The position numbers and the translations under genes are program-made. The notes beneath the pieces were generated by a model. That model worked only from the letters and a program-made list of their open reading frames with translations, did no database searches and had not been told where the DNA came from. From positions 1 through 35,555 of the IMG/VR virus record IMGVR_UViG_3300021185_003161: 35,555 bases of DNA; one strand, given 5' to 3'. Below, piece by piece: positions 1 to 14,600 of this stretch; the stretch's first letter is position 1; every line of letters starts with the position of its first letter. Origin of the DNA: a virus.

Positions 1-411
1 GGTAGCATAAGCATCCCAGTCAATACAAAAAGGTTTGTCATCACTCTTTCGATATAATAAATTATAATATTGTAGATCTCTTTTAGAATAATCATACCCT
101 AACTTTTCGATTAGTTTTAGATAACATCTAATATTATGTGTGTATCCAAAATCCTTGCATGGTTTATGCTCTATAAAGTTTTGAGTAACACAATAAAAAT
201 CATCAGTAGTTTCTTCACTTACATATAAGTCTGGATGTACTAACTTCATGAAAGATGTGGTCTTCTTTACATTCTTTACAAAGTGAGTGTCTCCACCTTC
301 AGCTGTTATTACATGACACATAGGATAGTATTTCTTAATAAACTCTCCTTGTTTCAATATAATATGAGATCTACCAATAAGCTTTTCATCCTCTTCTAAT
401 ATTAGATACAT
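1..411 (-). CDS. Kinase-like (HRD/APH-type fold) protein, C-terminus cut by window edge
   Basis: An open minus-strand frame of 137 codons runs off the left edge without a stop. Near the cut end it reads KRDLQYYNLLY and then FCIDWDAYA. This has the spacing of a protein-kinase or aminoglycoside-phosphotransferase catalytic loop: catalytic Asp112, Asn five residues later (Asn117), and a metal-binding Asp131 in an IDWD motif 14 residues further on. The conserved His of HRD is Lys here. The N-lobe is too short and divergent for me to place a Gly-rich loop or the ATP-binding Lys with confidence. The substrate is unknown; sugar or lipopolysaccharide kinases share this fold, and the neighbours are glycan-type enzymes. 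The ATG at 411 directly follows an in-frame TAG, so the true start may lie further upstream. The fold call is inference from a short motif. Confidence 0.45.
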   Translation of the reverse strand, partial: MYLILEEDEKLIGRSHIILKQGEFIKKYYPMCHVITAEGGDTHFVKNVKKTTSFMKLVHPDLYVSEETTDDFYCVTQNFIEHKPCKDFGYTHNIRCYLKLIEKLGYDYSKRDLQYYNLLYRKSDDKPFCIDWDAYAT

Positions 412-507
412 CTACTCATCTTCTTCGTATATAAAGTAAGAATCTTGCTCTTCCTTTTTAAATAAATTCTTTATTCTATACAATAAATTTTTATACTTAT
501 ACTTCAT
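412..507 (-). CDS. Small 31-codon ORF, or leader of the kinase-like gene
   Basis: ATG at 507 opens a 31-residue very basic then acidic peptide (starts MKYKYKNLLYRIKN, ends YIYEEDE-like) that stops at TAG 412-414. The next codon, in the same frame, is the ATG of the kinase-like gene. It overlaps the end of the SGNH gene by 11 nt. Two readings are possible: a tiny coupled peptide, or the first part of one longer kinase-like protein interrupted by an amber codon. No strong Shine-Dalgarno sequence is visible at 507 (only AAAG). I cannot decide between these from one sequence. Confidence 0.3.
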   Translation of the reverse strand: MKYKYKNLLYRIKNLFKKEEQDSYFIYEEDE

Positions 508-1261
508 AATCTTTAATTTTTTCATTAATGATCTCCCCTAGCTTTTTCTGACCTGATCTATTAGGATGACTATCACCGTCTCCTATTCTCTCTTCTTTAG
601 CAATTAATATGTTTAAATCTTCACCTCCAAAGTAAGAGAAAAAAGGCCAGCCTATTAAATCAATATCCTCACAGTCCTCTAAATAATTAAAATAAAAATT
701 ATCGTATATACAAGACGCGACATATTTTAATTTTTTATTAACTAAATTAAAAGGTTTTAACATCTGAAATATATGTAGCTTTATTTTTCTTTCTCTACAT
801 AATGTATGAAGTAAAAAAATATCTCTGAATAAATCTTCTGTCATAACCTTATAAGTTTGTTCTGAATCTAAGATATCCTTTGCTTTATTAGTAAATTTTT
901 TTAATAAATATAGCTGTTTGTCTGCTATATTTTTTTCATTTCTAGAATAGTTACTTATTAGTTCTTTCTCCTTATCACCATAACCTTCTCTAGTTATAAT
1001 ACCTGGGTTAATACTATAGCCTCTCAAAGAGAATCTTTCCCATTGAGATAGCGATATAATAACTCTTGTTACATTAGGGTTAGAAACAATAGCATCTATT
1101 GCAGAACTTATTATTGTATCATTACCTCGGCCAGATTGAGAAATATTCAAAACAGGGTCTTTATACTTTAAGTAGTCAGACCAAACCGGCCATGTAATTC
1201 TAGATCTATCTGCTAGCTTTAAATTAGGAGCACAAAAACTGCACCCTGATACAATTATCAT
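497..1261 (-). CDS. SGNH/GDSL-family hydrolase-like protein
   Basis: A 254-residue protein with the SGNH esterase blocks in order. Block I is VSGCSFC with the candidate nucleophile Ser8. An NISQSGRGND segment follows near residues 39-48. A SQWERF segment near residues 72-77 fits block III of phage members of this family. The C-terminal block V is GDSHPNRSGQ, supplying the catalytic Asp/His. Family members remove or transfer acyl groups, often acetyl, on sugars and cell-wall polymers; the substrate here is unknown. It starts at ATG 1261, overlapping the carbamoyltransferase stop by one base (TAATG), so the two are probably translated together. There is no signal peptide or membrane segment, so it should act in the cytoplasm of the infected cell, for example on activated sugars or on a decorated phage product. 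Confidence 0.65.
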   Translation of the reverse strand: MIIVSGCSFCAPNLKLADRSRITWPVWSDYLKYKDPVLNISQSGRGNDTIISSAIDAIVSNPNVTRVIISLSQWERFSLRGYSINPGIITREGYGDKEKELISNYSRNEKNIADKQLYLLKKFTNKAKDILDSEQTYKVMTEDLFRDIFLLHTLCRERKIKLHIFQMLKPFNLVNKKLKYVASCIYDNFYFNYLEDCEDIDLIGWPFFSYFGGEDLNILIAKEERIGDGDSHPNRSGQKKLGEIINEKIKDYEV

Positions 1262-2565
1262 TAAAACACTCTAACTCCGTATATCTTCTCAAACTCTTTA
1301 GCTTGCTGTAGATTATCTACCATAGGTTTACCCTTTATATTTAGACTAGTGTTTAGCAGCATAGGGCATTTAGTCTGTTCATACCATTCTTCTAGTATAG
1401 GTCTAATAACTGACTTACAATCTTTCTTAACAACTTGAACTCTTGCAGTACCATCAACATGAGTTACACTCTTATGATCATGTTTAGCTTTGGCTACGTA
1501 TTGCATATATTCATTCATTGGACCTTCGAAATATTCATCAGCAAACTCTTCTAATATAGCAGGTGCGAAGGGTCTAAACTTTTGTCTTCGTTTAATCTGA
1601 TTAACAGTATCTTTGATATCTTTTCTAGGATCAGCAATAAGGCTACGATTGCCAAGAGCACGAGGACCAAACTCAGCACGTCCATTAGCAATACCGCAGT
1701 ATGAATTATCTATAAGATAACTAACAACTTCTTTAACATTTATATCTCTCTTTATATCTGTACCTAGATAAGGATCAACCCAATTTAATTGTTTATCAAG
1801 ATAAGCTGCAGCAGCACCTAGAGAAGATCCAGCATCTCCTGGATTAGGTAATATCCACACTTTGTCAAACATATAATGTACTCTGGTATTAGCAACACAG
1901 TTAAGAGCAACTCCACCACCATAACAAAGATAATTAGAATACTTCCTTGCTCTATACATTATCTCTATTATTTCATATTCAATAATGGCTTGAGCACTAG
2001 CAGCAATATCATTGTCTGATAATTCCCGTGGAAGATATATGCCTTTATGATAGTTGTTATATGGATCTATCTTAATATGAGGATTACCATAAGCAGCCAT
2101 ACCCATAGTTATATACTCATCTTCATTAGGTTTTAACTTAATAGCTTTAGTTATAGCAGTATAGAATAATCCTAATGATTTAGGATACTTCATAGACCAC
2201 TTCTTCTTTTTCTTATACCATATAGAAGCAGTATCCCATTCACCTATAGCATCTATAACAACACAAACAGGTTCTTCTTCGTATGGTCTTGTATAGTATG
2301 CAGCTGCAGCATGAGACCAATGATGATTAATATATGCATCATGATTCTGTCTTGTAACCCAACGTTGACCATATAGAAATCTTCTTATATTTTTCTTAAA
2401 AGGTTTTTCATAAAAGACTGAAAATCCATCTATTTGTGTATGAAGGTTTCTATCGTTCTTTATTCGTGAGTGTCTCTCACTATGATGAGCTTCTACTATA
2501 TCCTGCCCCTCTAAATAAGAGTAAGCGGCATCATGAAAGCCGTAAGATAAACCAAATATAGTCAT
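1261..2565 (-). CDS. Carbamoyltransferase (NodU/CmcH/TobZ family)
   Basis: It transfers a carbamoyl group from carbamoyl phosphate through carbamoyl-adenylate to a hydroxyl, usually on a sugar or natural product. Numbering is from ATG 2565. The N-terminal Kae1-like domain has FGLSYGFHDAA near the start, the metal-site NHHWSH (His81, 82, 85), MGMAAYG and YGGGVALN (216-222). The C-terminal YrdC-like part has GRAEFGPRALGN (295-306), FRPFAPAI and LNTSLN (404-409). At about 434 residues it is shorter than the usual 550-600 but keeps both domains. ATG 2577 is also possible, but 2565 has a GGA seven bases upstream and gives the usual family N-terminus. A TATAAATA late promoter lies at 2596-2603, inside the divergent glycosyltransferase gene. 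Relatives occur in several marine T4-like phages. Family call is firm; substrate unknown. Confidence 0.92.
   Translation of the reverse strand: MTIFGLSYGFHDAAYSYLEGQDIVEAHHSERHSRIKNDRNLHTQIDGFSVFYEKPFKKNIRRFLYGQRWVTRQNHDAYINHHWSHAAAAYYTRPYEEEPVCVVIDAIGEWDTASIWYKKKKKWSMKYPKSLGLFYTAITKAIKLKPNEDEYITMGMAAYGNPHIKIDPYNNYHKGIYLPRELSDNDIAASAQAIIEYEIIEIMYRARKYSNYLCYGGGVALNCVANTRVHYMFDKVWILPNPGDAGSSLGAAAAYLDKQLNWVDPYLGTDIKRDINVKEVVSYLIDNSYCGIANGRAEFGPRALGNRSLIADPRKDIKDTVNQIKRRQKFRPFAPAILEEFADEYFEGPMNEYMQYVAKAKHDHKSVTHVDGTARVQVVKKDCKSVIRPILEEWYEQTKCPMLLNTSLNIKGKPMVDNLQQAKEFEKIYGVRVF
2510..2517 (+). promoter_or_regulatory. Possible weak late promoter for the glycosyltransferase block
   Basis: TCTAAATA on the plus strand differs from the T4 late octamer TATAAATA at one base. 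It lies inside the carbamoyltransferase coding region, about 58 bases before the glycosyltransferase ATG at 2576. It is the best candidate I see upstream of that plus-strand block, but a one-mismatch octamer in AT-rich DNA is weak evidence. Confidence 0.25.
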
Positions 2566-2575
2566 AGTGAAGTCC

Positions 2576-3478
2576 ATGAAAAGAATTATATACAGTATTT
2601 ATATTGACATTGCAACTGATAAATTAGATGCTCAACCTCCTCATCATGGAGAAAAAGAAGATAAGAATCAAAAAGCTAAAAGAGAGTTTGCAGAGAATGT
2701 AGATTGGCTTATAGCGAGACAAAAAGAGTATGCAGATTTAATAAATGCTGAATATAAACTATATGGTAATGATGATGATTACATAAAGTATCAAGCGTGG
2801 TTTAACACACATCATCCATATATTACTGAATATAATATTATAAATTTCTATAAAATACATTTGATGTATCAATTAAAAGATAGTTATGATGAGATACTCT
2901 ATCTTGACTTAGATGTACTACCAGCTACTACAGAAGACTTTTTTATCGCACATGACTTATCTAAAGGTGTCGCTATAAAAAAGAACAATCATGGCATGTC
3001 TATGAATAAGGATAGTATAGCTCATAGAGAAGAAAAGTTCTTTAATCAGGGCATGTTAAGTAGTGTAAGAAGTCCATGGGCCAAGTGGTGGAACTCCAAA
3101 GCTCTTTGTATGGAGTATGGTGAACCTGTAGATGATATCCCTGTTTATAATACTGGTATTGTAGGTATAAACAAACACTGGTTAGATAAAATAAACTACT
3201 TTGAAGACTTTGAAGAAATTTTAGCTGATATGAAAGAGTTAAAAGAAGAAGAAGACTCTATGTGGCCTAACTTTGTACAAGCTATGTTCGGATGGGATAA
3301 TGAAACTATATGGGGAGTTAAATGTCATCTTAATAAAGTACCTTCAGTATGGTTAGATGGTAGATGGCATACATTTTTAGATAAAGGAGTTACTATACCT
3401 TCTAAATCTAAACTTGTTCATATCATAAACAAAAACTTCGGTGCAGTGAGAGAGTGGTATGAAGCGCGTAATCTATAG
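2576..3478 (+). CDS. Glycosyltransferase-like protein (GT-A fold), copy 1
   Basis: A 300-residue protein starting MKRIIYSIYI. Its core is YDEILYLDLDVLP, with a DxD motif (Asp111-Asp113) of the kind that holds the metal and nucleotide-sugar in GT-A glycosyltransferases. Further on, NQGM and VYNTGIVGIN resemble the acceptor-side loops of GT8/GT32-like enzymes. The next gene begins MKRVIYSMY and has the same layout, so the two are paralogues; that conserved start is why I place this start at ATG 2576 rather than GTG 2567. Its reading frame overlaps the next gene by 20 bases. The start lies only 10 bases from the divergent carbamoyltransferase start. The likely role is adding a sugar to a glycan or protein; donor and acceptor cannot be read from sequence. 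Confidence 0.75.
   Translation: MKRIIYSIYIDIATDKLDAQPPHHGEKEDKNQKAKREFAENVDWLIARQKEYADLINAEYKLYGNDDDYIKYQAWFNTHHPYITEYNIINFYKIHLMYQLKDSYDEILYLDLDVLPATTEDFFIAHDLSKGVAIKKNNHGMSMNKDSIAHREEKFFNQGMLSSVRSPWAKWWNSKALCMEYGEPVDDIPVYNTGIVGINKHWLDKINYFEDFEEILADMKELKEEEDSMWPNFVQAMFGWDNETIWGVKCHLNKVPSVWLDGRWHTFLDKGVTIPSKSKLVHIINKNFGAVREWYEARNL
2596..2603 (-). promoter_or_regulatory. T4-type late promoter for carbamoyltransferase/SGNH genes
   Basis: The plus strand reads TATTTATA, so the minus strand carries the exact T4 late octamer TATAAATA. Transcription would begin about 6-7 bases downstream, near 2589, giving a leader of about 24 bases to the ATG at 2565. The octamer sits inside codons 7-10 of the divergent glycosyltransferase gene. 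T4 late promoters need only this -10-like element, read by the gp55 sigma factor; that this phage uses the same system is inferred. Confidence 0.6.
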
Positions 3479-4247
3479 CATGTATCAACCTAACATCCCT
3501 AAGGTAGGTTTTAGTGTAGATACTTATAAACAAGACCAGTTTGAAAAGTATAAAGATAAGTTAATTAAGTGTAAGCAAGAATATGCTGATCAGTGTGAAG
3601 CAGACTTTTTTATGCACTACCCTAATCTTAAAGATTATACATCTCTTCAATATGAAAAAATAAGACTACTAGAAGAGTATGCAGAGAGTTATGATGAGGT
3701 ATTATATCTAGACTTTGATGTTATACCAGCTCATTCTCCTAGAAATATATTTGAATGTGTAGACCTCAGTAAGATAAACATGCATCCTTTTAAACGAGAA
3801 ATAAAACCTTATGAATTAAAAAGAGCTATAACAAATAAAAATGTAGAGTACTTTGATGATCAGACAATGTTTGTAAAGGTTTGTGCTAAGAAGTCTATGC
3901 TCTTATTAGAAGGTGTAAACAGTAACGATCTATGCTATAATACAGGTGTGGTTTGTGCAGGCAGTGACGTTATAAAAAGTATTAACTTTATTGATAAACT
4001 AGATGAGATGAAAGAACTTCTGGATGAAAGTAAAGAAGATAGTTTATATCCAGAAGGAATAACTAAACATTTCTCTTATAATAATGAAGTGTTTATATCT
4101 TATATTATAGAAAGATATAACATACCTCATGTAGACCTTGGAATGAACTGGAACTATATTATAGATGATAGAATGGAATTAAGCCATGGAGGATATGATC
4201 TTCTACACATGGTTAGTAAAAACTTTGTATTAAAATTTGGTGAATAG
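3459..4247 (+). CDS. Glycosyltransferase-like protein (GT-A fold), copy 2
   Basis: A 262-residue paralogue of the preceding gene. It shares the MKRVIYSMY start, a Tyr/Lys-rich helix with EYAD, then YDEVLYLDFDVIP with a DxD motif (Asp85-Asp87), and YNTGVV in the second half. It is about 40 residues shorter than copy 1, mainly in the N-terminal third and the tail. ATG 3459 lies inside the end of copy 1 and the frames overlap by 20 bases, so coupled translation is likely. There is no signal peptide or membrane helix, so it should be cytoplasmic. GT-A transferase is well supported by the DxD context; donor sugar and acceptor are unknown. Confidence 0.72.
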   Translation: MKRVIYSMYQPNIPKVGFSVDTYKQDQFEKYKDKLIKCKQEYADQCEADFFMHYPNLKDYTSLQYEKIRLLEEYAESYDEVLYLDFDVIPAHSPRNIFECVDLSKINMHPFKREIKPYELKRAITNKNVEYFDDQTMFVKVCAKKSMLLLEGVNSNDLCYNTGVVCAGSDVIKSINFIDKLDEMKELLDESKEDSLYPEGITKHFSYNNEVFISYIIERYNIPHVDLGMNWNYIIDDRMELSHGGYDLLHMVSKNFVLKFGE

Positions 4248-4249
4248 CT

Positions 4250-4810
4250 ATGCGTGTGATATGTGTTCGTACAGGAGATAAATTTGACTCTTGGTATGAA
4301 GAAAACTTAAAACATATGATTGATACCTACTCTAATTTAGAGTATAGTAGTTTCGAAGTTATACGAGATGATGTATATGAAGGTGTGTATAATAAGTTAC
4401 TAATGTTTGACCGATATAGAGATGGACAAAACATTTACTTTGATTTAGATGTCTTAATAAAAGGTGATTGTAATAAGTTTATACAGAAAGACTTTACATT
4501 GTGTCATGCTTGGTGGCGTAAAGAATATCATACTAGAGTCAATAGCTCTATAATGTCTTGGCACGGAGATCAGTCTCACCTCTTTAACGAGTTTAATAGA
4601 GATCCAGAATATTATATGATGAAATATAACAAAGGTATTGATCAAATAATATATGAGACTATGACATATAAGGTGTATGGATGTGTAGACAGTTACTGCT
4701 CTTATCAAACAGTAACTGATGAGAAAGACTACAGTGTATATCTATTTAATCAAAATCACCAAGCTATGAAGCTTCCTGGATGGCATCAACAATATCAATT
4801 GCCGCTCTAA
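4250..4810 (+). CDS. Small glycosyltransferase-like protein, copy 3
   Basis: A 186-residue protein with the start MRVICVRTGDKF and NIYFDLDVLIKGD, again a DxD motif (Asp65-Asp67) after a hydrophobic strand. It is more distant from copies 1 and 2 and shorter than most GT-A enzymes, ending soon after a CSYQTVTDE segment. It follows copy 2 by two bases, in the same direction, so the three form one unit. Its last 47 bases overlap the end of the convergent gene on the other strand. It could be a minimal glycosyltransferase or a glycosyltransferase-like partner of copies 1 and 2. Confidence 0.6.
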   Translation: MRVICVRTGDKFDSWYEENLKHMIDTYSNLEYSSFEVIRDDVYEGVYNKLLMFDRYRDGQNIYFDLDVLIKGDCNKFIQKDFTLCHAWWRKEYHTRVNSSIMSWHGDQSHLFNEFNRDPEYYMMKYNKGIDQIIYETMTYKVYGCVDSYCSYQTVTDEKDYSVYLFNQNHQAMKLPGWHQQYQLPL

Positions 4811-5270
4811 TAGCTCCAAGCGGAGTACTAGCACGACGTAATGCTTTCTTTAATTCTTTATCTTTACAATCCTTTACTGCTTGTTTTTCAAACAATTGTA
4901 ACTTAAGATAGAATAGCTGCTCTTTGTCTTTCTTTTCGTCGTAAGTATCAAATATCATATCAATGACTATTTTCAGAAAATCGTTACTACCTCCATCATC
5001 GATATTAACCAGCCAACCTTTTTCTTTCGCAATATGAATTACTTGATCTTTAAAGGCTTGTTCAGACTCTTTTATATATTCCCATGTGTTACTATGAATT
5101 TCATCTAATGTAATATGTTCTAATAGATTAGCGTATGAAGAATCTTGCTCATCAGCTTCAATTATATTCTCTATTAATACCCCTTGGTTCTCTGGATCTT
5201 CCCAGAAAGACATAATAGTTGTTTTATCTTCATTACTAAAATATGCAGATACAAATGTAAAATTATTCAT
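4764..5270 (-). CDS. Hypothetical protein in the modification island
   Basis: I do not recognise this 168-residue protein. It is acidic in the first half (PENQGVLIENIIEADEQD), mostly helical in character, with KGWLVNIDDGGSNDFLKIV in the middle and a basic C-terminal helix ending in a hydrophobic AAIDIVDAIQEAS. I place the start at ATG 5270 because AAGGAAGAAGAG stands directly upstream; an upstream ATG at 5303 lacks this. The start overlaps the SPASM ORF stop by 8 bases, so it belongs to the radical SAM unit. Its end overlaps the last glycosyltransferase gene by 47 bases on the opposite strand. It may be a small partner or substrate carrier for the neighbouring enzymes, but nothing in the sequence proves that. 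Confidence 0.6.
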   Translation of the reverse strand: MNNFTFVSAYFSNEDKTTIMSFWEDPENQGVLIENIIEADEQDSSYANLLEHITLDEIHSNTWEYIKESEQAFKDQVIHIAKEKGWLVNIDDGGSNDFLKIVIDMIFDTYDEKKDKEQLFYLKLQLFEKQAVKDCKDKELKKALRRASTPLGAIRAAIDIVDAIQEAS

Positions 5271-5577
5271 TCTCTTCTTCCTTTTGTGTACACCATTTAG
5301 CACACTGCTTTAAAGTTTTACTTTTATCAGACCAAGATTGCTCAAGCTCTTTCCACCACTGATGTTTATTTATAGAGTCCATATCATTTTTAAATATGTT
5401 AAGTTCATCCTTATATGTAGTATAACTCTCTAACACTTCTTGGTTGTCTTTATATCCACTCTTACTGTTAGAAACAGCATACTCATACTCATTGTTAACA
5501 AGATAACAACAAGGCCAGACCTGTCCGTCTATATTAACTAGAACTCTATTCTCATCTCGCCATTTACATTTTATCAT
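5263..5577 (-). CDS. Stand-alone SPASM (auxiliary Fe-S cluster) domain protein
   Basis: A 104-residue protein that looks like the C-terminal part of a radical SAM/SPASM enzyme. Cysteines stand at Cys4 (IKCKW), Cys23-Cys24 (GQVWPCCYL) and Cys92/Cys96 (QCAKWC), the pattern that binds an auxiliary iron-sulfur cluster. The segment RVLVNIDGQVWPCC is the typical SPASM hairpin. It starts at ATG 5577, sharing ATGA with the stop of the radical SAM gene, in a different frame. In most families these two parts are one chain, so this is either a true two-subunit enzyme made by stop-restart coupling or a split gene. It has no role alone that I can see. Confidence 0.7.
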   Translation of the reverse strand: MIKCKWRDENRVLVNIDGQVWPCCYLVNNEYEYAVSNSKSGYKDNQEVLESYTTYKDELNIFKNDMDSINKHQWWKELEQSWSDKSKTLKQCAKWCTQKEEENE

Positions 5578-6278
5578 AATCGTATACGCTCTGCTACTCT
5601 ACTACCTGGTTCAGATAGTACTGATGATGGCTCTAAAATCTCTTGTACACCTTCTTCATTAGAGAATCTAAATTCTAACTTATTGAATGGAGGACAAGCA
5701 GCAAATCTATCTGTATATATGATTTTATGATTAGTAGCGCCATGCTCTTTTACTAGTTTGGTTATATCTTTTAAATAGCTTTCATTGTGTTTAAAGACTA
5801 TAGTAGAAGCTGTAGTTCGAGCATTAGTATTAGAATACTCTAGCATATGATTTAATACTTTATCTAGTTCAGTTTTTCTTCTGTATCTGGAATGCATCTC
5901 TTGAGTTATACCATCTACACAAAATACTACTTCAAGCTGGCTACCACCTGCAACACCAACCTCCCACCAAAACTGTTCATCTCTAATAGACCCGTTAGTA
6001 TCTATAATTATAGTAGAATTACTGTTACTGGTTATATATTTTAATATAGGTAATATATCTTTATTCATCATAGGGTCACCCCATGTACCACAGATAGTAT
6101 ATTCTTTATGTCTAGCTGGATTAGGAAATGCTTTCTTAAAAGTCTCTAGACTCCATTGTTCTAAAGGAAGCCAATCTACTTTACCTAACCCGTTAACATT
6201 TGTACGATGGCATTGAGGACAAGCAGCATTACAAAATGTAGATATATCTAACCAAATTTCAGTTTCTGCTAACCACAT
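5574..6278 (-). CDS. Radical SAM enzyme (catalytic domain)
   Basis: A 234-residue protein with the [4Fe-4S] motif FCNAACPQC (Cys16, Cys20, Cys23; CX3CX2C) near the N-terminus. GTWGDPMMN follows in the place of the GGE motif, then IIIDTNGS and VVFCVDG, the usual strand ends of the partial TIM barrel. It cleaves S-adenosylmethionine to make a radical. SPASM-type relatives modify peptides, proteins or sugars; the substrate here is unknown. The chain ends at ERIRL and the SPASM half continues as the next overlapping ORF. It starts one base into the preceding methyltransferase stop (TAATG-type overlap), so methyltransferase, radical SAM and SPASM are probably co-translated. Confidence 0.88.
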   Translation of the reverse strand: MWLAETEIWLDISTFCNAACPQCHRTNVNGLGKVDWLPLEQWSLETFKKAFPNPARHKEYTICGTWGDPMMNKDILPILKYITSNSNSTIIIDTNGSIRDEQFWWEVGVAGGSQLEVVFCVDGITQEMHSRYRRKTELDKVLNHMLEYSNTNARTTASTIVFKHNESYLKDITKLVKEHGATNHKIIYTDRFAACPPFNKLEFRFSNEEGVQEILEPSSVLSEPGSRVAERIRL

Positions 6279-6877
6279 TAAACTTCTCCTATAATCATAT
6301 ATCTATCATGATTTTCAAAAGGCATTTCACCGATGTAATAAACTTTAGATAAATTAGTTTTATCCTTAAACTCTTGCAAGTCTTTACAACAGTTAACATG
6401 ATCTTCAACTTTATAATAATTATTTGATTGTAAAGCAACTATAGTTTTAGGCTTTAAGGATTGAAGTATATGCTCTACTGATAATTGATTAATATGTTCT
6501 ATACTAGTATTAATATATACATCACATATAGGAACATTTATCACTGTATCTCTTACTTCAAATGATATGTCATGCTCTTGAAATAGGTATTCTCCCATAT
6601 CTTTACAACCAGCGTCTCTATCAGAATTTATTATCTTATTATTCGAAAACTCTTTTCGTAGTAAATAAGAAGTTAACCCAAGCCAGCCAGCTGCTACATG
6701 TATATTATGATTAAAGATGTAAGGTGAAAGCTCATCTACTAGCCATTGCTTACCTATCCAATGCTTCTCAGATAGTCCATTACCCACCTCTTTAACTCTA
6801 TGTGTAGGAAACTTATCAGCATTATCATAAATGTATTCAACGAGTTTAAACCCTCGTTTCAAAATGTCTAAATCCAT
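6278..6877 (-). CDS. Putative SAM-dependent methyltransferase-like protein
   Basis: A 199-residue protein with a Rossmann-like pattern: NHNIHVAAGWLGLTSYLL in the place of the SAM-binding motif I, NSDRDAGCK after the second strand, and CDVYINTSIEHI at the fourth strand. The classic GxGxG is degenerate (AAGWLG). The second half has several cysteines and a KVYYIGEMPF strand. Methyl transfer is the likely activity, but the substrate cannot be read from sequence. It lies directly upstream of the radical SAM gene and is translationally coupled to the coiled-coil gene before it. The fold is moderately supported; activity is less sure. Confidence 0.55.
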   Translation of the reverse strand: MDLDILKRGFKLVEYIYDNADKFPTHRVKEVGNGLSEKHWIGKQWLVDELSPYIFNHNIHVAAGWLGLTSYLLRKEFSNNKIINSDRDAGCKDMGEYLFQEHDISFEVRDTVINVPICDVYINTSIEHINQLSVEHILQSLKPKTIVALQSNNYYKVEDHVNCCKDLQEFKDKTNLSKVYYIGEMPFENHDRYMIIGEV

Positions 6878-7455
6878 TAGATTAAATGTTTTAAGGCAGC
6901 AAGTAAGCTTTTAGATTTTTTAGTTTTATCAGATTTATTCTGCACAATATTGAGAGCTTCTTCATTAGTATTAAACACTTTGAAAAACTCAATTATATTA
7001 GTTAAAGTATAATTAATATCATCTGTAGGAATAGTCTTAGACATAAATGCATTCATAGATTTTACTTTATCAGAGAAGTCAGCCTCTAGCTTGTTAAGAT
7101 AAGTTAGTCTTTTTAACGCTTCTTCTTTTCTTTGCTTAGTAAGTATTTGAGCTTCTAATAATTGTTTACGTAGAATAGATAATTCTCTTTTTATATAATT
7201 GAGCTCTATCTCATAAACATCTCTTGCAGCTATTTTAAGATTTTCTCTCACTGCTCTAACTTGCTGTCTTTTAAAGTTAGCTGTGCAGTCAATAATTTTA
7301 TCTTTATCCCAGCCCGCTTCTGTTAATTGTTTATATTGAATTGATCCAACTTCTATACATTCTTCTATTACACCATCTTCATCTGTGTTATATAATACTA
7401 AAATATTATCTTGTTGCTCACTGGTGTATCTAGCTTCCACGACATCATTATACAT
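6877..7455 (-). CDS. Coiled-coil protein next to the fibre genes, possible fibre assembly factor
   Basis: A 192-residue protein. Its N-terminal 60 residues look like a small folded domain (NILVLYNTDEDGVIEECIEV, then AGWDKDKI). A long charged helix follows from about residue 65 to 130, rich in Lys, Glu, Arg and Leu with heptad character, and a short helical C-terminus ends AALKHLI. It stands directly after two fibre-type genes and starts nine bases past the end of the first. T4 puts fibre chaperones (gp38, gp57A) near fibre genes, so an assembly or tip-attachment role is conceivable, but I see no homology to support it. Otherwise unknown. Confidence 0.55.
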   Translation of the reverse strand: MYNDVVEARYTSEQQDNILVLYNTDEDGVIEECIEVGSIQYKQLTEAGWDKDKIIDCTANFKRQQVRAVRENLKIAARDVYEIELNYIKRELSILRKQLLEAQILTKQRKEEALKRLTYLNKLEADFSDKVKSMNAFMSKTIPTDDINYTLTNIIEFFKVFNTNEEALNIVQNKSDKTKKSKSLLAALKHLI

Positions 7456-7464
7456 ATATTTTCC

Positions 7465-8418
7465 CTAAACTTGATAAATTTTAAGATAGTTTGTACTCGC
7501 TACTACTGGTGTACCGTCTGGAAATTCTTGTGCACGGTAATCATCAACACCAACAAATCTTGTTTGATAATTACCTGACCCATTTAAGACAGTGTTTGAC
7601 ATACCAGTACCTCTATTATTACCATCCCCGTTAATCCGATAGCGAATTCTCGATCCTGGTACTTCTGAAGCTACGTGTCTTACACAGTTCTTTAAAATAG
7701 CATCAAAACTTGCAGTAGTATATTCTTGTAAGTTATTATCAGATCTGATAAAAACAGGAGAAGAGTATGCTATTGCTGATCCAGCATTTACTCTGAATAA
7801 ATAATAGTTAGCTACTGTATCAGGTGAAGCGTCCATATTATTACCAATATTACCTGATGTGTAATCAGATAGATCTGCTCTTGTGTCGGTAAAGACAGGA
7901 GTTGTACTTATTAAAGTGGAGCCAGTTAGAGCATTAGCTGAATGTATCCTGTATGTGCCGGGTCGATCCGTACCGTCTGTAATATTATCAATTTCAGGGT
8001 ATATAAACGTATCGTACATATCTGTAAGAGTCATAGCTTGAATGTTTCCGTTATTATTGTAAACTGGAAAAACTATACTATCTGTATCTGCCGTTTCTGT
8101 TGTATCAAAGTGGCTTTGATCTATTCTAGAATACTCAACTGATACAGTTCCTGGTTCATCAGTGTCTGATTCCGGTGCATACTCCGCCGCGCCGTCATCA
8201 TCACCATCTTGATTACCAGTTGTTGTAGAGACAGCACCAGCTACTTTTCTAGTGTCATTTATAGCACCTAAATTACCACCAGACGATACAACGCTCAGGT
8301 CTACTGACGGGTCAGTAGCGTAAAGATATCTCACTTGAGACTTTATCTCATTTATCTGGGTTGTCGTCATCTCCTGGAGGTTTCCTCCATTAAGATAGAG
8401 TGGAGTTCTAACAGTCAT
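7465..8418 (-). CDS. Virion structural protein with a triplicated module (fibre-associated)
   Basis: A 317-residue protein with three copies of a lead motif: TPLYLNGGNLQEMTTTQI (residues 5-22), FPVYNNNGNIQAMTLTDM (117-134) and SPVFIRSDNNLQEYTTASF (220-238). The last two copies are followed by a beta-rich stretch with PGxRxR-like text; a degenerate fourth lead motif may sit near residues 173-187. Composition is rich in Asp, Thr, Ser and Asn, without cysteine except one, as in fibre and baseplate proteins. It lies 4 bases after the tail fibre gene and has a good AGGAAG ribosome site. It is probably a fibre tip, collar or baseplate decoration protein of marine T4-like phages. The repeat is seen directly; the location in the virion is inferred. 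Confidence 0.7.
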   Translation of the reverse strand: MTVRTPLYLNGGNLQEMTTTQINEIKSQVRYLYATDPSVDLSVVSSGGNLGAINDTRKVAGAVSTTTGNQDGDDDGAAEYAPESDTDEPGTVSVEYSRIDQSHFDTTETADTDSIVFPVYNNNGNIQAMTLTDMYDTFIYPEIDNITDGTDRPGTYRIHSANALTGSTLISTTPVFTDTRADLSDYTSGNIGNNMDASPDTVANYYLFRVNAGSAIAYSSPVFIRSDNNLQEYTTASFDAILKNCVRHVASEVPGSRIRYRINGDGNNRGTGMSNTVLNGSGNYQTRFVGVDDYRAQEFPDGTPVVASTNYLKIYQV

Positions 8419-8422
8419 TTAC

Positions 8423-11383
8423 TTAACTTCCTGCACCATACAAGGTTTTTACAGCTGTTCCTGCACTGTTATAAATTATTAAAGAAACAACACTTTTTAA
8501 TTCATCTGCACCAACCGCATCATCAGCAATATGTTCATTATCGATTGAACCGGCTGCATAGTGTTCTGAGTTAATTACATCATCAGCAATCTTAGTACCA
8601 TCAATAGCATCAGCGCCAATCATTGCTCTTACTACTTGAGTTTCACCAATAACTCCTGCAGCTGTTGCTCCTAATACTCTATTAGCTGTTACTAAGTTCT
8701 GCATTTTAGCATAAGTAACCGCATCATTTGCAATTGTTGTAGCACCATCACCGGAAGATGTTACATCTCCTGAATGGTTAGGATGTGTGTATACTGTATC
8801 AGTCCAAGGTACGTTTACATAAGCTTTTTCACTAGACAACTCAACCGGATAGTTTTTACCATTTTCAGCGTAACCTATCTTCATACCGCCTCTAGTAGCA
8901 CTAGCAGATAAAGGTAGAGAATAGTTATTAGCTCCATCAGCCACGTTTATCATATTACGTATATTTACTGGAGCTAGCTCTTCTACAGTACCATCTCCAG
9001 AATCTCTACCTAACAGCCTACTTGTAGCCGATACATTCTGCATCTTAGCATATGTTACTTTATCATTACCGATTGTAGTAGCACCATCACCACTAGAAGT
9101 TACATCACCAGTGTGATTTGGATGTGAATAAGCAGCCGGTAAAGTAATTGTCTTAGTGCGAGCTCCAGTAACGTGTCCTCTTGCATTTGTTGTGAGAGTA
9201 TCAATAGCTGTGAATGTAGCTCCATAACCAGGAGCAGCTGTTGTTGTAGTGTTCGTTCTAGTTATATTAGCGTGGTTGATAGTAATAATCTCATTACTAC
9301 CTTGGTTAGTTGTAAAGTTACCACCTGTGACTAAGTCTGTACCAGCTGTAAGCGTGATAGTAGCGTTTTCAATATCACCAGTAACAGCTAACGTACCAGT
9401 CTTAGGACCTGTAAACTCCCACTGATCAGTGTTTTCGTTGAATTGGAATACAGCATTTGCAGAGCTGCCGCGTTCTACTTCAATACCAGATCTAAGAGTT
9501 GTTGATGGAGTACCTGTTTGATTCTTATTAAGAGTAATAATATTATCTTCTATAAGAAGAGTGTTGGTGTCGATAGTAGTAGTTGTACCATTAACTTGTA
9601 AGTTACCAGTAATTGATAAATCACTAGTCACTGTAAGATCTCCAGTAACATCTAAATCACCACGTGCAACAGTATTACCAGCAACAGTTAGATTATTATC
9701 TACAGAGAGTGCAGTAAAGTTAGCACTATCATTTTCTAGAGCAATAAGCTGCATATCATTAGTTGTACCAGCTTGCCATCTGTCTAATGATTCATTCCAT
9801 ACTAGCTGGGCACTATCTGAAGTACCTCTATCAATTGATATAACACCATTTTGTACTGGTGTTCCGGATGTGCCATCACCTAGTTTAAACTCATGAGCTG
9901 CTAGAACGGTAGATCCAGATACAACAAAATTACCAGTAACATTAAAGTCATTAGTAACAGTTAAGTTATTACCTATAACAACATCATCAGGTAAAGATAT
10001 TGTTGCTGAGGATCCTTCTCCTGCGCTATGTACTACTGTAATCTCATTTGCTGTTCCTGAAATACCTGACATATAGTTACCAGTAGTTTCAGTTCCAAGT
10101 ATAACACCGTTATTTTTAATTGTGACTACACCTGAGCTAACCGCAAAGTTATCTGAACTAAACGATGCAACACCTTTGTTAGATGTTGTAGCAAGCTCAC
10201 CAGCAACTGTAATAGTATTACCTGACACTGTTGTATCAATACCTTCACCAGCTGTGACTGTAAATGTTTCTCCAAGATTAACTGCATTAGCTGTACCAGA
10301 AGAAGCAGCGATATTAATATAACTATTATCAATCTGTGAGTTACCAATCGAAGCAATTGACACCGCTCCAGATGATACGTTAAAGTCTGCTGCAGCAAAT
10401 GATGCTACACCTTTGTTAGTTGTTGTTGCTAACTCACCAGTAATATTGATCTTATTATTTGATACTGTAGTGTTAATACCTTCGCCAGCTTCAAATGTGA
10501 TTGTATCACCTAACGTAATATTATCTGTTGATCCAGTTTCAGCTGCAATCCTTAGAGCCCATCCAGTAGATGTTACATTACCAGTGATATCTAAATCACC
10601 ACCAATGTTAGTATTACCTGATGCTTGAACTATGTTTGTAGCACCTACAGTAAATGTAGTACCATCAAATGTTAATGTAGAAGCATCTTCTAGTTCACCA
10701 CCTGTACCTACAATAACAATTCTGTTATTAGTTAAATCTTCTATCTTAGCTGTGGCTATTGTAGCAGATGTGTTTACATCTAAAGTATTAGATACTGTAA
10801 TATCATCTGCAGATACAGTGTCAATATTACCTGTACCATGAACATGTATGTTACGCCATTGCTGAGTGTTTGAACCTAGGTCGTATGTGTTGTCTGTATT
10901 TGGAATAATATGAGAGTTAACATCAGCTGAGAATACAACGTTATCTGTATTTGCATCACCTAACGTAACTGATCCATTAGACCCGGCTTTCATATTAACA
11001 ACACCGTCTACAGTAAGAGTACCATCTACTTGTAGGTTACCCCCAATGTCCACGTTGCTATGAACGTCTAAATCGCCCTTTATAGTGTTGGTAGCACTAG
11101 AATCTCTCATATGTAACTTAGCTGAGTTAATCAGGGTATCGTTAATTGAGTCTAATCTTGTATCTAATTCTAGTATAGCTGTAGATACTGTACTAGCAGT
11201 AGTACCCATCGCAGCAGCAGTTATTGTTCCTAACTCTGCATCATGTTCATTAATCGCACCGACTACATCAGAGTCTTCTGTGGTTGTAAGATTACCTCTC
11301 CAACCTACGTCAGCTGAGATGATGTTGACCTTCTCTTGAAACGTCTTTACTGTATCACTAATGTTTACAATTTGCTTTGGCAT
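8423..11383 (-). CDS. Repeat-rich tail fibre protein
   Basis: A 986-residue protein of low-complexity beta repeats. Its N-terminus has a helical [14 protein letters not shown] segment that probably anchors to the baseplate. The middle has serial strands of the [11 protein letters not shown] and [10 protein letters not shown] type, as in intertwined beta-helical fibres. Two copies of [13 protein letters not shown]...VSSG lie around DNA 10130-10450. Two copies of [18 protein letters not shown] lie at 8697-8785 and 9036-9124. It ends in a short VKTLYGAGS tail with no intramolecular chaperone domain I recognise. This is the typical style of long fibres in marine T4-like phages; it should bind the host surface. 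It is preceded by the small coiled-coil gene with a 3-base gap and an internal late promoter octamer. Confidence 0.85.
8697..9124 (-). repeat. Duplicated 89-bp segment in the tail fibre gene
   Basis: Positions 8697-8785 and 9036-9124 are two diverged copies of the same 89 bases, in frame, 339 bases apart. Each encodes [18 protein letters not shown] followed by [11 protein letters not shown]. The number of residues between copies (113) marks one structural period of the fibre. Such in-frame copies allow recombination that lengthens or shortens the fibre. Confidence 0.75.
10133..10445 (-). repeat. Duplicated [13 protein letters not shown] segment in the tail fibre gene
   Basis: Two in-frame copies, about 10133-10207 and 10372-10445, encode GELATTxNKGVASF followed by a short strand and VSSGxVxI. 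A GEGIxTTVSxNxIxI segment precedes each copy, so the full repeat is about 80 residues. It is a common fibre repeat of marine T4-like phages, in my recollection. Confidence 0.7.
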
Positions 11384-11386
11384 ATC

Positions 11387-11608
11387 TTACTTCTCTGCTA
11401 GTTTTTTCAGTAAATCTTTTATAACACTAATATCATTCTTAAGTTGATCCACGTCAGATTTAAGTTCTCTTTGTTCTTGTTCTTCTAATGACTGTCTATG
11501 CTTTCTTTCTCTAGCATTGTTAGCCTCTGTACTATTTATACTAATAACAGCACCGGTATTCATATCCCGAACAAGATCTATATGACCTTCTACTTTCACT
11601 TTATTCAT
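11387..11608 (-). CDS. Small coiled-coil protein between DUF4815-like gene and tail fibre
   Basis: A 73-residue protein. Residues 1-28 are a small beta-like segment (VKVEGHIDLVRDMNTGAVI). From about residue 30 on it is one charged helix with leucines at heptad spacing (QLKNDISVIKDLLKKLAEK). It starts at ATG 11608, right after the 1718-residue gene stop, and ends 3 bases before the fibre start, so it is part of the same late unit. A trimeric or dimeric coiled-coil connecting or chaperoning the fibre is a reasonable guess; no homologue is recognised. Confidence 0.65.
   Translation of the reverse strand: MNKVKVEGHIDLVRDMNTGAVISINSTEANNARERKHRQSLEEQEQRELKSDVDQLKNDISVIKDLLKKLAEK
11533..11540 (-). 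promoter_or_regulatory. Possible internal late promoter for the tail fibre
   Basis: TATTTATA on the plus strand gives an exact TATAAATA on the minus strand, inside the small coiled-coil gene and about 150 bases before the fibre start codon. It could give extra fibre message. Because it also encodes Ser-Ile-Asn codons in an AT-rich gene, chance is a real alternative. Confidence 0.4.
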
Positions 11609-11609
11609 A

Positions 11610-14600
11610 TTACACCGTTAATGCTATAACTCTTAAATCACCAAACTGAGGGACCTTTGCGTTATTTGTTGATTTCATAACAATTTTAATCTGGAACTGA
11701 TCAAAATCATTTAAAGTACCTCCAATACCTCCTGGCAAGTACCTATAGTCTCTATAGATATTAGGATTTTCATCTGCAGGTAATGTAACTTCTGGTGCTA
11801 TCAATGTATACACAGTGTCTAGTAGCTTGCTGCTGCTGTTTGTCCTAAAGTAAACATCAAAATCACTTGTAGATGGTTTATTAGCTGATAGCAGTATCTT
11901 TAAGCCTTTTGCTTTTTCTGATAAGGTAATTGGTTTAGTAACATGTTTAGCTAGCGATGTACCTCCTAGTGAATTTGTTTCTGCAGAGCTGCGTAGAGCA
12001 TTATTCTGATCAATTCTATTATGAACAGTGGTAATGGATGTTCTCTGCATATCAATTACTGGAGTGGTATATGATGTGGATGTAGTAAGATCTAGCTTTA
12101 CAGTTGTTGATGAATTACCAGACATGTTATCTGTTTCGTTACGCTTTGTAGCTAAGAGCTTAGGGTTCTCAAAATATATGTTCTTATTAATAGGGTATGC
12201 TTTATATGAAACATCACCTTGATAAGCCACTTCTGATCCAGCTGTAGACTTACCACTAGTTAATTTAGCCACAGCAGAAACGTTACAAGCAAACGGTAGA
12301 ATGTTTTCTATATTCAATCTTGCGAGTTCAAATTGATTCTGTCTCTCAATTATAAAGCTGCCTCCTCCTCTAGTTGAAGAAGTAGCATTAGAAGATACAT
12401 TAAATTTAAATTCATCACCAGCTACATGAGTAATAGTGTGCACTGCATTTAACTGATTAGCTGGAATACCACCTGTAGCTGCAGCGCCTGTTATCTGAAC
12501 ATCATCTCCTACAACAAATCCGTGATCTCTCATTCCTACTTCCACTGAGTTAGATGATGCATCTGTTCTAATAAAGTTAGTTAAATTAACACTTGCAGGT
12601 GAACTATTAGTTAATACAGCTGCGCCAGAAAGATTAAAGTTAGCCCGCGAGAGTTTAAAAGTAAGATCTTTAGTTTGATCTGGTTCCCATGTCTTACCAT
12701 TCTGAGATTTAAATAATGAGCCTAGAGTAGCTTGCTTAGATAGTTTTTTCTCTGTTGATCCAAGAATAAACTTACCAGCTTCTGCAACATACACATTATA
12801 ATCTTTTGAATCAGATAATAGAACTATACAGAAATCTGTATTACCAGTTAAATAAACTGGTTCTTCTAAAGTAAATGTTGTTATTGCAGAACCGTCATCT
12901 GATACAGTAATAGCTGAAGGGCTCTTGAATACAGTTGATCCTGGGACTATTGCTTCTGCAGAAGGTTGACCGTTTACCATAGGTCTTAATTGAGCTACAA
13001 CTGGAGTTTTATTAACAGCAGGTTTAGACTGAAATCTAACTTGTATATCAGTAATAAAGCAACCTGATGTTTCTGCTACAGTAAATGATTGAGCTAGCGG
13101 GTCTTTTGATCCACTACCTACTGAGCCGCCACTATTGGACCAACCGCCGCCCCATCCATCATCAGCAGGAGGTACAACAACAGTAGATCCGCCATTACCG
13201 CCGCCTCCTCCGCCGCCTCCGCCTCCGCTAGTAACAGATCCTGGAGGAGGTCCTATATTAAGATTAGTTACAGTTACTTGTAGATCTACTACTCGTGTAG
13301 ATAAAACCGTTTGCTGTCTATGAACAACTACACCTTGAGCATAATATTTTGCTGATGCAATTGATGTACAGTCTTTTTCGTTATTTCTAGAAATATCAAT
13401 TAATGTTAAAGCTTTATCTCCAGATGTAAACTTAATATCTTTTGTATTAGGTAAGAAGAAAGAACCTTCTATAGCGCCGTTATCATCTGACAGCAGCGGA
13501 GTGGTTGGTGTTCCTGGATGCTGAGTAAGCTCATTGTAACCGTTAGAATAATCAGAATCAAGAGTAGATATATGTCGGAACGTTTCTTGTTTAACCCAAC
13601 TATCTACAGCTTTTAATCCAAAGAATGGATAATGTCTAGTTAAAGGTTTTAATCCTTGTGCTTTAAAAAATATTTTACGAGTTCTCATATAAGGTAAGAA
13701 CGCACGACTTAACTCTACACCCTCTTCATCAATAAAAGTAGTACTAGTACTAATACCAGCAATTTTTACATCTTTGGTGGTTTGAATATTATTACTTATT
13801 GTAACTTTACTATCACCTACTTGATCACCCACTTCTAGTTCAGTTGAAATGCCCGCCCAATTGAAGCTCCAATCATTCCAAACATTACCTGCTACATCTC
13901 CTTGTACAAAACCACCATCAATTACAATAGGCTCAGCAAACTCTGTATCGAACCATTCATCTGATGTTGGAGATAGCTCCATAAACCCTCTACGTAAAAC
14001 AACAGCAAATGGGTTAACATTTTCAATACCAGTCATATGTTCATTTTCAAGGTAATCAACAGTATCATATGATAACATAATATTATCACCTTTGATTACT
14101 ACATTAGTATTCTCACTATGATCACTATCATAAAAGAGATTAGTATTTCTACTAGTAAATGTAGGTCTCATGCGTTTATTAATAGGATCAATAGCTGATT
14201 TGTTTGCACCAAGTAATGTAAATACTCTTTGTTGATCTTTAAAGTTATCAACAAAAAACCCTGATTTATTACGACTTAGACCTGCAGAATCAAACACATC
14301 AAATTGAGACGTTTCTAATTCCAATAAGCTTAATGCAGTTGTCTCTTCTAAGTCAGATACGCGCTTTTCTAATTTTCCTATATCTGCCATAGTAAAACGT
14401 TTATAAGAAAGCATTTTACTGTTAATATCATTATCATCTAATACATATGGGTTCATTACAACATTAAATATATCCATAGAATTTTCAGGAGACTTAGGTA
14501 ACTGTGGCTCAATAGCAGGCTGGCCAGGTATTACAGATAGGTTACCTGATTGACCTATTACTACCTTAGCAGCTTGTCCTTGATAATAATTGGCATCAAA

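Follow-up and report, generated by a model that had tools for sequence, protein, structure and literature searches.

A candidate glycan-tailoring module in the host recognition cluster of a T4-like pelagimyophage

The host recognition cluster (HRC) of pelagimyophages and cyanomyophages is a hypervariable island beside VrlC and the tail fibres of T4-like phages, in which glycosyltransferases (GTs) and radical S-adenosylmethionine (SAM) cassettes occur in variable order; for pelagimyophages, modification of the host O-chain has been proposed as its role (PMC7029224). The 35,555-base IMG/VR virus contig IMGVR_UViG_3300021185_003161, referred to here as the window, carries the same kind of cluster, with GTs and a radical SAM cassette beside VrlC and fibre genes. 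The block at positions 1-6877 is the fibre-proximal part of the HRC of a T4-like pelagimyophage, and its ten genes are best read as one coherent glycan-tailoring module. Next to the block come two genes for fibre-like proteins and one for a VrlC-like baseplate protein (11610-16766, minus strand; PHROG_358), which occupies the same place as the 'putative VrlC' of Pelagibacter phage Mosig and forms one border of the cluster (PMC7029224), and the T4-type baseplate, tail and neck region runs from 11.6 kb rightward. The neck-side border of the island (gp14) falls outside the window, and the left end of the record cuts the island. To the published cluster we add a near-constant unit made up of a fibre-like gene (g317), a protein of a family designated O179, GTs and a methyltransferase (MT), together with a carbamoyltransferase (CT) paired with an SGNH hydrolase, and a radical SAM enzyme (rSAM) split over two genes. 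In a text search of the HRC paper (PMC7029224), neither methyltransferase nor carbamoyl genes came up, and a literature search combining all five key terms of the island returned no paper. As far as we have checked, the new elements are the definition of the module, its linkage to g317 and O179 and the split of the radical enzyme over two genes; the island type was already known.

The closest described relative is Pelagibacter phage Mosig EXVC030M (MT647606; PMC7892664), the only one of 50,697 phage records to carry a relative of g317. Its HRC holds likenesses of g317, O179, CT, MT, the GTa/GTb pair (GTab), GTc, SGNH and VrlC in one region, as well as an rSAM gene with a separate Twitch gene. 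Mosig is also the only one of these records in which an MT relative is recognisable by sequence, and this MT is 24% identical to the relative in L033. The Mosig cluster differs from that of the window in an extra epimerase, a DegT aminotransferase and nitroreductases, and its g317 is only 45% identical. Since Mosig is the only phage record with g317 and has the same gene set, the window most likely comes from a SAR11-type phage. A second parallel is found in Campylobacter phages CP220 and CPt10, which carry radical SAM genes and two nucleotide-diphospho-sugar transferase-like genes near the baseplate genes, in a cluster that is exchangeable as a block (PMC2853527), although an amidinotransferase is annotated there in place of CT and the rSAM is only about 28% identical over 73%. 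In CP220 (L105, NC_027997.1 66461-82949) five radical SAM genes, the putative amidinotransferase and the two sugar transferase-like genes form one block after the baseplate/PAAR genes. Virus-encoded glycosylation of virions is on record for mycobacteriophages (Freeman 2023, as cited in PMC12619734) and for PBCV-1. The window likewise encodes GTs of the virus's own, which are candidates for such a role.

Three baits, namely CT, MT and g317, the last a structural gene picked as neutral, were searched in IMG/VR. No stretch was conserved across the full MT alignment, and the MT profile was therefore built from a subset. The g317 set comprises the 80 loci nearest to the query g317 profile, and counts refer to the 34 distinct loci with at least 6 kb of downstream sequence after dereplication at 90%. 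GT families are found within 6 kb downstream of g317 in 33 of these 34 loci, O179 in 32 and GT together with MT in 27, while rSAM occurs in 16 and CT in 14. Within 6 kb upstream of g317, none of the GT, MT, O179, rSAM and CT families was found in 60 loci (combined set). With MT as the starting point, a GT lies within three genes of 68 of the 73 distinct MT genes across all viral loci, 37 of them also with O179. Gene order and strand are scrambled among loci, and proximity to g317 and O179 is kept. With CT as bait, the SGNH gene sits directly downstream in 29/38 distinct loci, and CT-SGNH is therefore a mobile pair, present both inside and outside the fibre region. A sequence-only reading of this DNA had grouped the block's enzymes together and proposed that the grouping would fall if the genes never co-occurred in related genomes. 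They do co-occur, however: GT, MT and rSAM are linked far beyond chance to the same fibre-type gene, and CT and SGNH travel as a conserved pair.

The fibre-side partners in this linkage lie immediately to the right of the block on the minus strand. g317 (7465-8418) is a structural, fibre-like protein as judged by its alignment and its position after the fibre and VrlC genes, and directly downstream of it is an O179-family protein (6877-7455), recognised by the family alignment. The O179 gene inside the block (4764-5270, minus strand), an undescribed protein and a paralogue of the latter, is a tenth gene that the sequence-only inventory had overlooked. Neither g317 nor O179 has PDB-sequence relatives or a good PHROG match. 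Upstream of g317 lies a large repetitive fibre-like protein (8423-11383), assigned by size, position and sub-threshold DUF5907 repeats. In Mosig and several metagenomic relatives (for example L286:16792-17520; also L253, L263 and L265), the fibre operon contains an inserted gene for a nucleotide-sugar epimerase, which separates g317 from O179.

The three GT genes lie on the plus strand, opposite to the rest of the block, and therefore represent an inverted sub-cassette. GTa (2576-3478) and its homologue GTb (3459-4247) are followed by GTc (4250-4810), a small GT-A-type enzyme with a YFDLD motif (PHROG_1962 glycosyltransferase, 3e-4). The DxD motif is invariant in both GT families, as seen in the GTa/GTb alignment and in the GTc alignment. 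The AlphaFold2 (AF2) model of GTa (pLDDT 92.8) is predicted to have a GT-A fold and matches GT-A enzymes at Z 11-14.5. It is closest in fold to crystal structures of a PBCV-1 GT described as glycosylating the major capsid protein of that virus (Z 14.3-14.5; 188 residues and 3.3 A for the match at 14.5), a likeness that does not establish function, and further neighbours include a xyloglucan xylosyltransferase (13.2), LARGE1, LgtC and WbbM. Model and DxD motif together place GTa among the GT-A enzymes, while GTb and GTc are placed there by homology or motif only. None of the three can be assigned to GT8 (PF01501), with GTb aligning below the cut-off (21.4 vs 24.3 bits) and GTa and GTc giving no match. 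Two GTa/GTb-like domains, encoded here by adjacent overlapping genes, are fused into a single protein of 554-591 aa in 18 distinct relatives.

MT (6278-6877, minus strand) is predicted from its alignment, its AF2 model (pLDDT 96) and structural matches to have a class I SAM-dependent methyltransferase fold and to transfer methyl groups. In the structural search the 50 best entries scored Z 15.7-17 and almost all were methyltransferases, and an unusual (G/A)GW(Y/L)G loop occupies the expected position of the usual glycine-rich motif. Matches to spermidine synthase and CntL profiles (E 1e-3 to 0.05) raised an aminopropyl- or nicotianamine-type synthase as a candidate, which was set aside because the best neighbours of the model are ordinary methyltransferases; methyl is presumably the group transferred. 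The family is found mainly in phages. A distant subfamily occurs in a few metagenome-assembled genomes (MAGs) of soil and marine Alphaproteobacteria (L108, L117, L119), unlinked to these GTs, and its neighbours there, an ABC transporter or a gene judged by eye to be sugar-transferase-like (L108, L119), are unrelated and uninformative as to function.

CT (1261-2577, minus strand) is a short form, 438 aa, of the NodU/TobZ-type O-carbamoyltransferases. It matches both Pfam domains of these enzymes, Carbam_trans_N (E=5e-35) and Carbam_trans_C (E=1e-46), at 122 and 159 bits against cut-offs of 24 and 27, as well as PHROG_1601 (Nol-like). By sequence comparison it aligns with the GdmN, TobZ and novobiocin carbamoyltransferase structures, its C-terminal half aligning to the solved enzymes, although NodU, TobZ and GdmN are 576-702 aa long. 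It is not a NodU orthologue by NF041651 (128 bits vs a cut-off of 1000), and comparison with one close relative (L022) suggests that its start may be at 2565. In the partner SGNH/GDSL-type hydrolase (497-1261, minus strand) both the catalytic Ser and the Asp-x-His blocks are present, with GCSF near-invariant and D-x-H invariant (DxHPN kept) in the alignment. Lipase_GDSL_2 is matched by 6 of 22 aligned relatives, and the window protein itself falls below Pfam thresholds. The kinase-like open reading frame (ORF) at the edge (1-411, minus strand; C-terminal end cut by the window edge) has no Pfam, PHROG or NCBIfam match. A full-length relative sits beside SGNH in L022 and matches RIO1 only (E=0.03); in L265, Pkinase is matched at 4e-4 by a neighbouring kinase-like gene. 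Overall, ORFs and family searches bear out the earlier calls of CT, SGNH, three GTs, rSAM, a SPASM-like protein and MT, but the kinase call is weak. With their catalytic motifs intact, CT, MT, the GTs, SGNH and rSAM look functional.

The rSAM gene (5574-6278, minus strand) overlaps by an ATGA the gene for a stand-alone Twitch/SPASM-like subunit (5263-5577, minus strand). The former belongs to the radical SAM superfamily, passing PF04055 (29.8 vs 29.5 bits) with a CxxxCxxC motif that is invariant in 23 sequences, and the latter falls just under the PF13186 cut-off (19.3 vs 21.5 bits). A SPASM domain is a seven-cysteine, C-terminal domain of the same chain, whereas this protein has five invariant cysteines and is encoded by a separate gene. 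Twitch domains hold one auxiliary cluster (PMC10470005), and the five cysteines suggest a closer fit to Twitch. Frameshift or sequencing error as the origin of the split is ruled out, in that 29 distinct pairs overlap by 1-52 nucleotides (nt), in both of the other frames and never in the same frame, and in 30 relatives the two are fused in one protein; the two-gene form is thus a product of evolution. A limited literature search found no paper describing it. The GTa/GTb and rSAM/Twitch fusions support joint action of the respective partners. Membership in the viperins (pVip) is not indicated (18.6 vs 180 bits), and a PADLOC match of 25.7 bits (E 2e-6) is at superfamily level. In many relatives (L019:5181-6281, L009, L011, L014, L020 and others), the rSAM/Twitch pair is directly followed by one to three tandem genes of another radical SAM family, whose members have a Cys-rich segment at the N-terminus; the stretch of the island inside the window lacks this family.

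A late promoter of CT had been put forward as evidence that the product is made together with virions. An octamer of late-promoter type, TATAAATA (2596-2603, minus strand), does lie upstream of CT, but because it falls within the GTa coding sequence, on the codons for Ser-Ile-Tyr-Ile, we have downgraded it from strong evidence to an ambiguous site. It is kept in the close relative L022, and L144, L145 and L211 carry TATAGATA instead. Of the eight [TC]ATAAATA sites in the window, five are followed by a start codon within 45 nt; 2.6% of strand positions lie within 60 nt of one. Where MT leads a transcription unit in relatives, the motif is found within 90 nt upstream in 11/23 cases, compared with 148/709 (21%) other leading genes and 75/1528 (5%) internal genes. 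Late expression of the island genes is thus only suggested, by the enrichment at MT leaders.

From family chemistry, the three GTs would build a short oligosaccharide, which MT would methylate and CT carbamoylate, SGNH would put on or take off an acyl group, and the two-subunit radical SAM/Twitch enzyme would make a C-H change on the sugar or on the acceptor. Least supported in this scheme are the acceptor and the part played by O179. The acceptor may be a virion protein encoded in the neighbouring fibre operon (either g317 or the large fibre), in which case each fibre type would travel with its own decorating enzymes, and O179 may be an assembly partner or adaptor. A glycan on the fibre could shield it or change its binding to the receptor. 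That the module decorates a virion protein of this operon is the target we tentatively favour, at somewhat less than even confidence. It is consistent with the fixed linkage to g317 and O179, the near-absence of GTab and MT from SAR11-order genomes, the epimerase inside the fibre operon, the lack of transmembrane-like segments in the enzymes and the PBCV-1 GT as closest structural neighbour of GTa. MT divergence, moreover, correlates with that of O179 (r=0.43; 0.41 after removing VrlC) more than with that of VrlC (0.22). A stronger form, a self-decorating adhesin in which each g317/O179 allele has its own late-expressed line of enzymes placing a methylated, carbamoylated and radical-modified glycan on host-recognition proteins, seems to us possible but less likely than not.

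Several observations weigh against a virion target. No acceptor was identified, and late expression rests on motifs only. MT divergence does not track g317 itself (0.09), and physical linkage alone raises co-divergence, which confounds the MT-O179 correlation. CT-SGNH pairs lie far from fibres in other phages, for example in replication regions, and the same folds (LgtC, WbbM, GT8) serve lipopolysaccharide synthesis.

The last point bears on the best-surviving alternative, a serious if minority possibility in our estimate, in which the same enzymes modify the surface polysaccharide of the infected host, its O-chain or capsule, and thereby block superinfection or the re-adsorption of progeny to debris. 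Such a role has been proposed for GT8-type genes of the pelagimyophage HRC (PMC7029224), and it would fit the sub-threshold GT8 match of GTb, LgtC and WbbM among the structural neighbours of GTa, and the DegT aminotransferase and epimerase of Mosig, types common in O-antigen sugar pathways. The SAR11-order genomes, by which we mean the order containing a MAG labelled Candidatus Pelagibacter, speak on both sides. A carbamoyltransferase family is present in 55/117 and a GT8 family in 46/117, so the search is able to see such genes; as about half of these genomes encode a CT or GT8 themselves, it is plausible that surface glycans of the host are modified, which again counts against a virion acceptor. 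However, when 247 such genomes were searched for GTab and MT, the former was absent from 246 and the latter from 245, the sole strong case being one short contig that also carries CT and SGNH and the other a borderline MT match (1e-5). A g317 search of these genomes was empty, as expected, which shows nothing by itself. The CT-MT-GTab phage cassette is found on contigs binned into bacterial MAGs (L124, L125, L126), of which one is labelled Candidatus Pelagibacter; these are probably misbinned phage contigs. The fixed adjacency to g317 and O179 would not be needed for a host role, and the benefit would be short-lived in a lytic cycle. Nor does the window encode a flippase, a polymerase or a membrane GT. 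O-antigen conversion of the gtrABC-like kind is not indicated, as no block protein within the window has a transmembrane-like segment (maximum 19-residue hydropathy 1.21).

An unlikely alternative is that auxiliary genes without a common product have gathered independently at this hotspot, their proximity reflecting tolerance of insertion. The region is hypervariable (PMC7029224), CT-SGNH turns up in replication regions elsewhere, and some loci carry cargo such as desaturases, 2-oxoglutarate oxygenases and PP-loop enzymes. Against this, the GT, MT and O179 families recur in nearly all loci rather than at random, GTa-GTb and rSAM-Twitch occur both fused and as overlapping pairs, and CT keeps its SGNH partner.

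We consider it quite improbable that the radical SAM/Twitch pair acts independently of sugars on a ribosomal peptide, in the manner of ribosomally synthesized and post-translationally modified peptides, or on a specific residue of a fibre protein. Its NCBIfam matches do include the peptide maturase StsB and the mycofactocin rSAM, but all are far below cut-off and at superfamily level. The pair sits among GTs in relatives, and no recurrent small precursor-peptide gene was seen beside it there (ORFs under 45-60 aa were not listed). Peptide modification is thus the weakest of the three targets offered by the sequence-only reading. DNA hypermodification in phages is known, or has been proposed, to involve GTs, MTs, rSAMs and carbamoyl-transfer enzymes, but a role of this block in modifying phage DNA bases is scarcely credible, given its place in a late structural region with fibres rather than among nucleotide or replication genes and the absence, in family searches, of any base-modifying enzyme or dNTP gene from the block.

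Two further features of the cluster were seen in passing. A conserved small ORF (73 aa, at about 11386-11607 in the window) separates the VrlC-like gene from the large fibre, occurs in many relatives and contains a TATAAATA site at 11533-11540. Other island cargo in L018, L030, L065 and L286 includes a fatty-acid desaturase-like gene, Asp/Arg-hydroxylase and dioxygenase annotations, PP-loop-like enzymes, nitroreductases and an aminotransferase, some of them recognised by eye.

The split radical SAM/Twitch enzyme would make a useful biochemical model, in that the auxiliary-cluster domain is a polypeptide of its own. The T4-like pelagimyophages are a widespread ocean group, and the presence of the same gene set in the cultured SAR11 phage Mosig makes the choice between virion and host targets directly testable. 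Should the target be the host glycan, the module would be a recurrent receptor-masking system. If the fibre-linked kit glycosylates fibres, host range would depend on chemistry too, and predictions made from fibre sequences alone would mislead.

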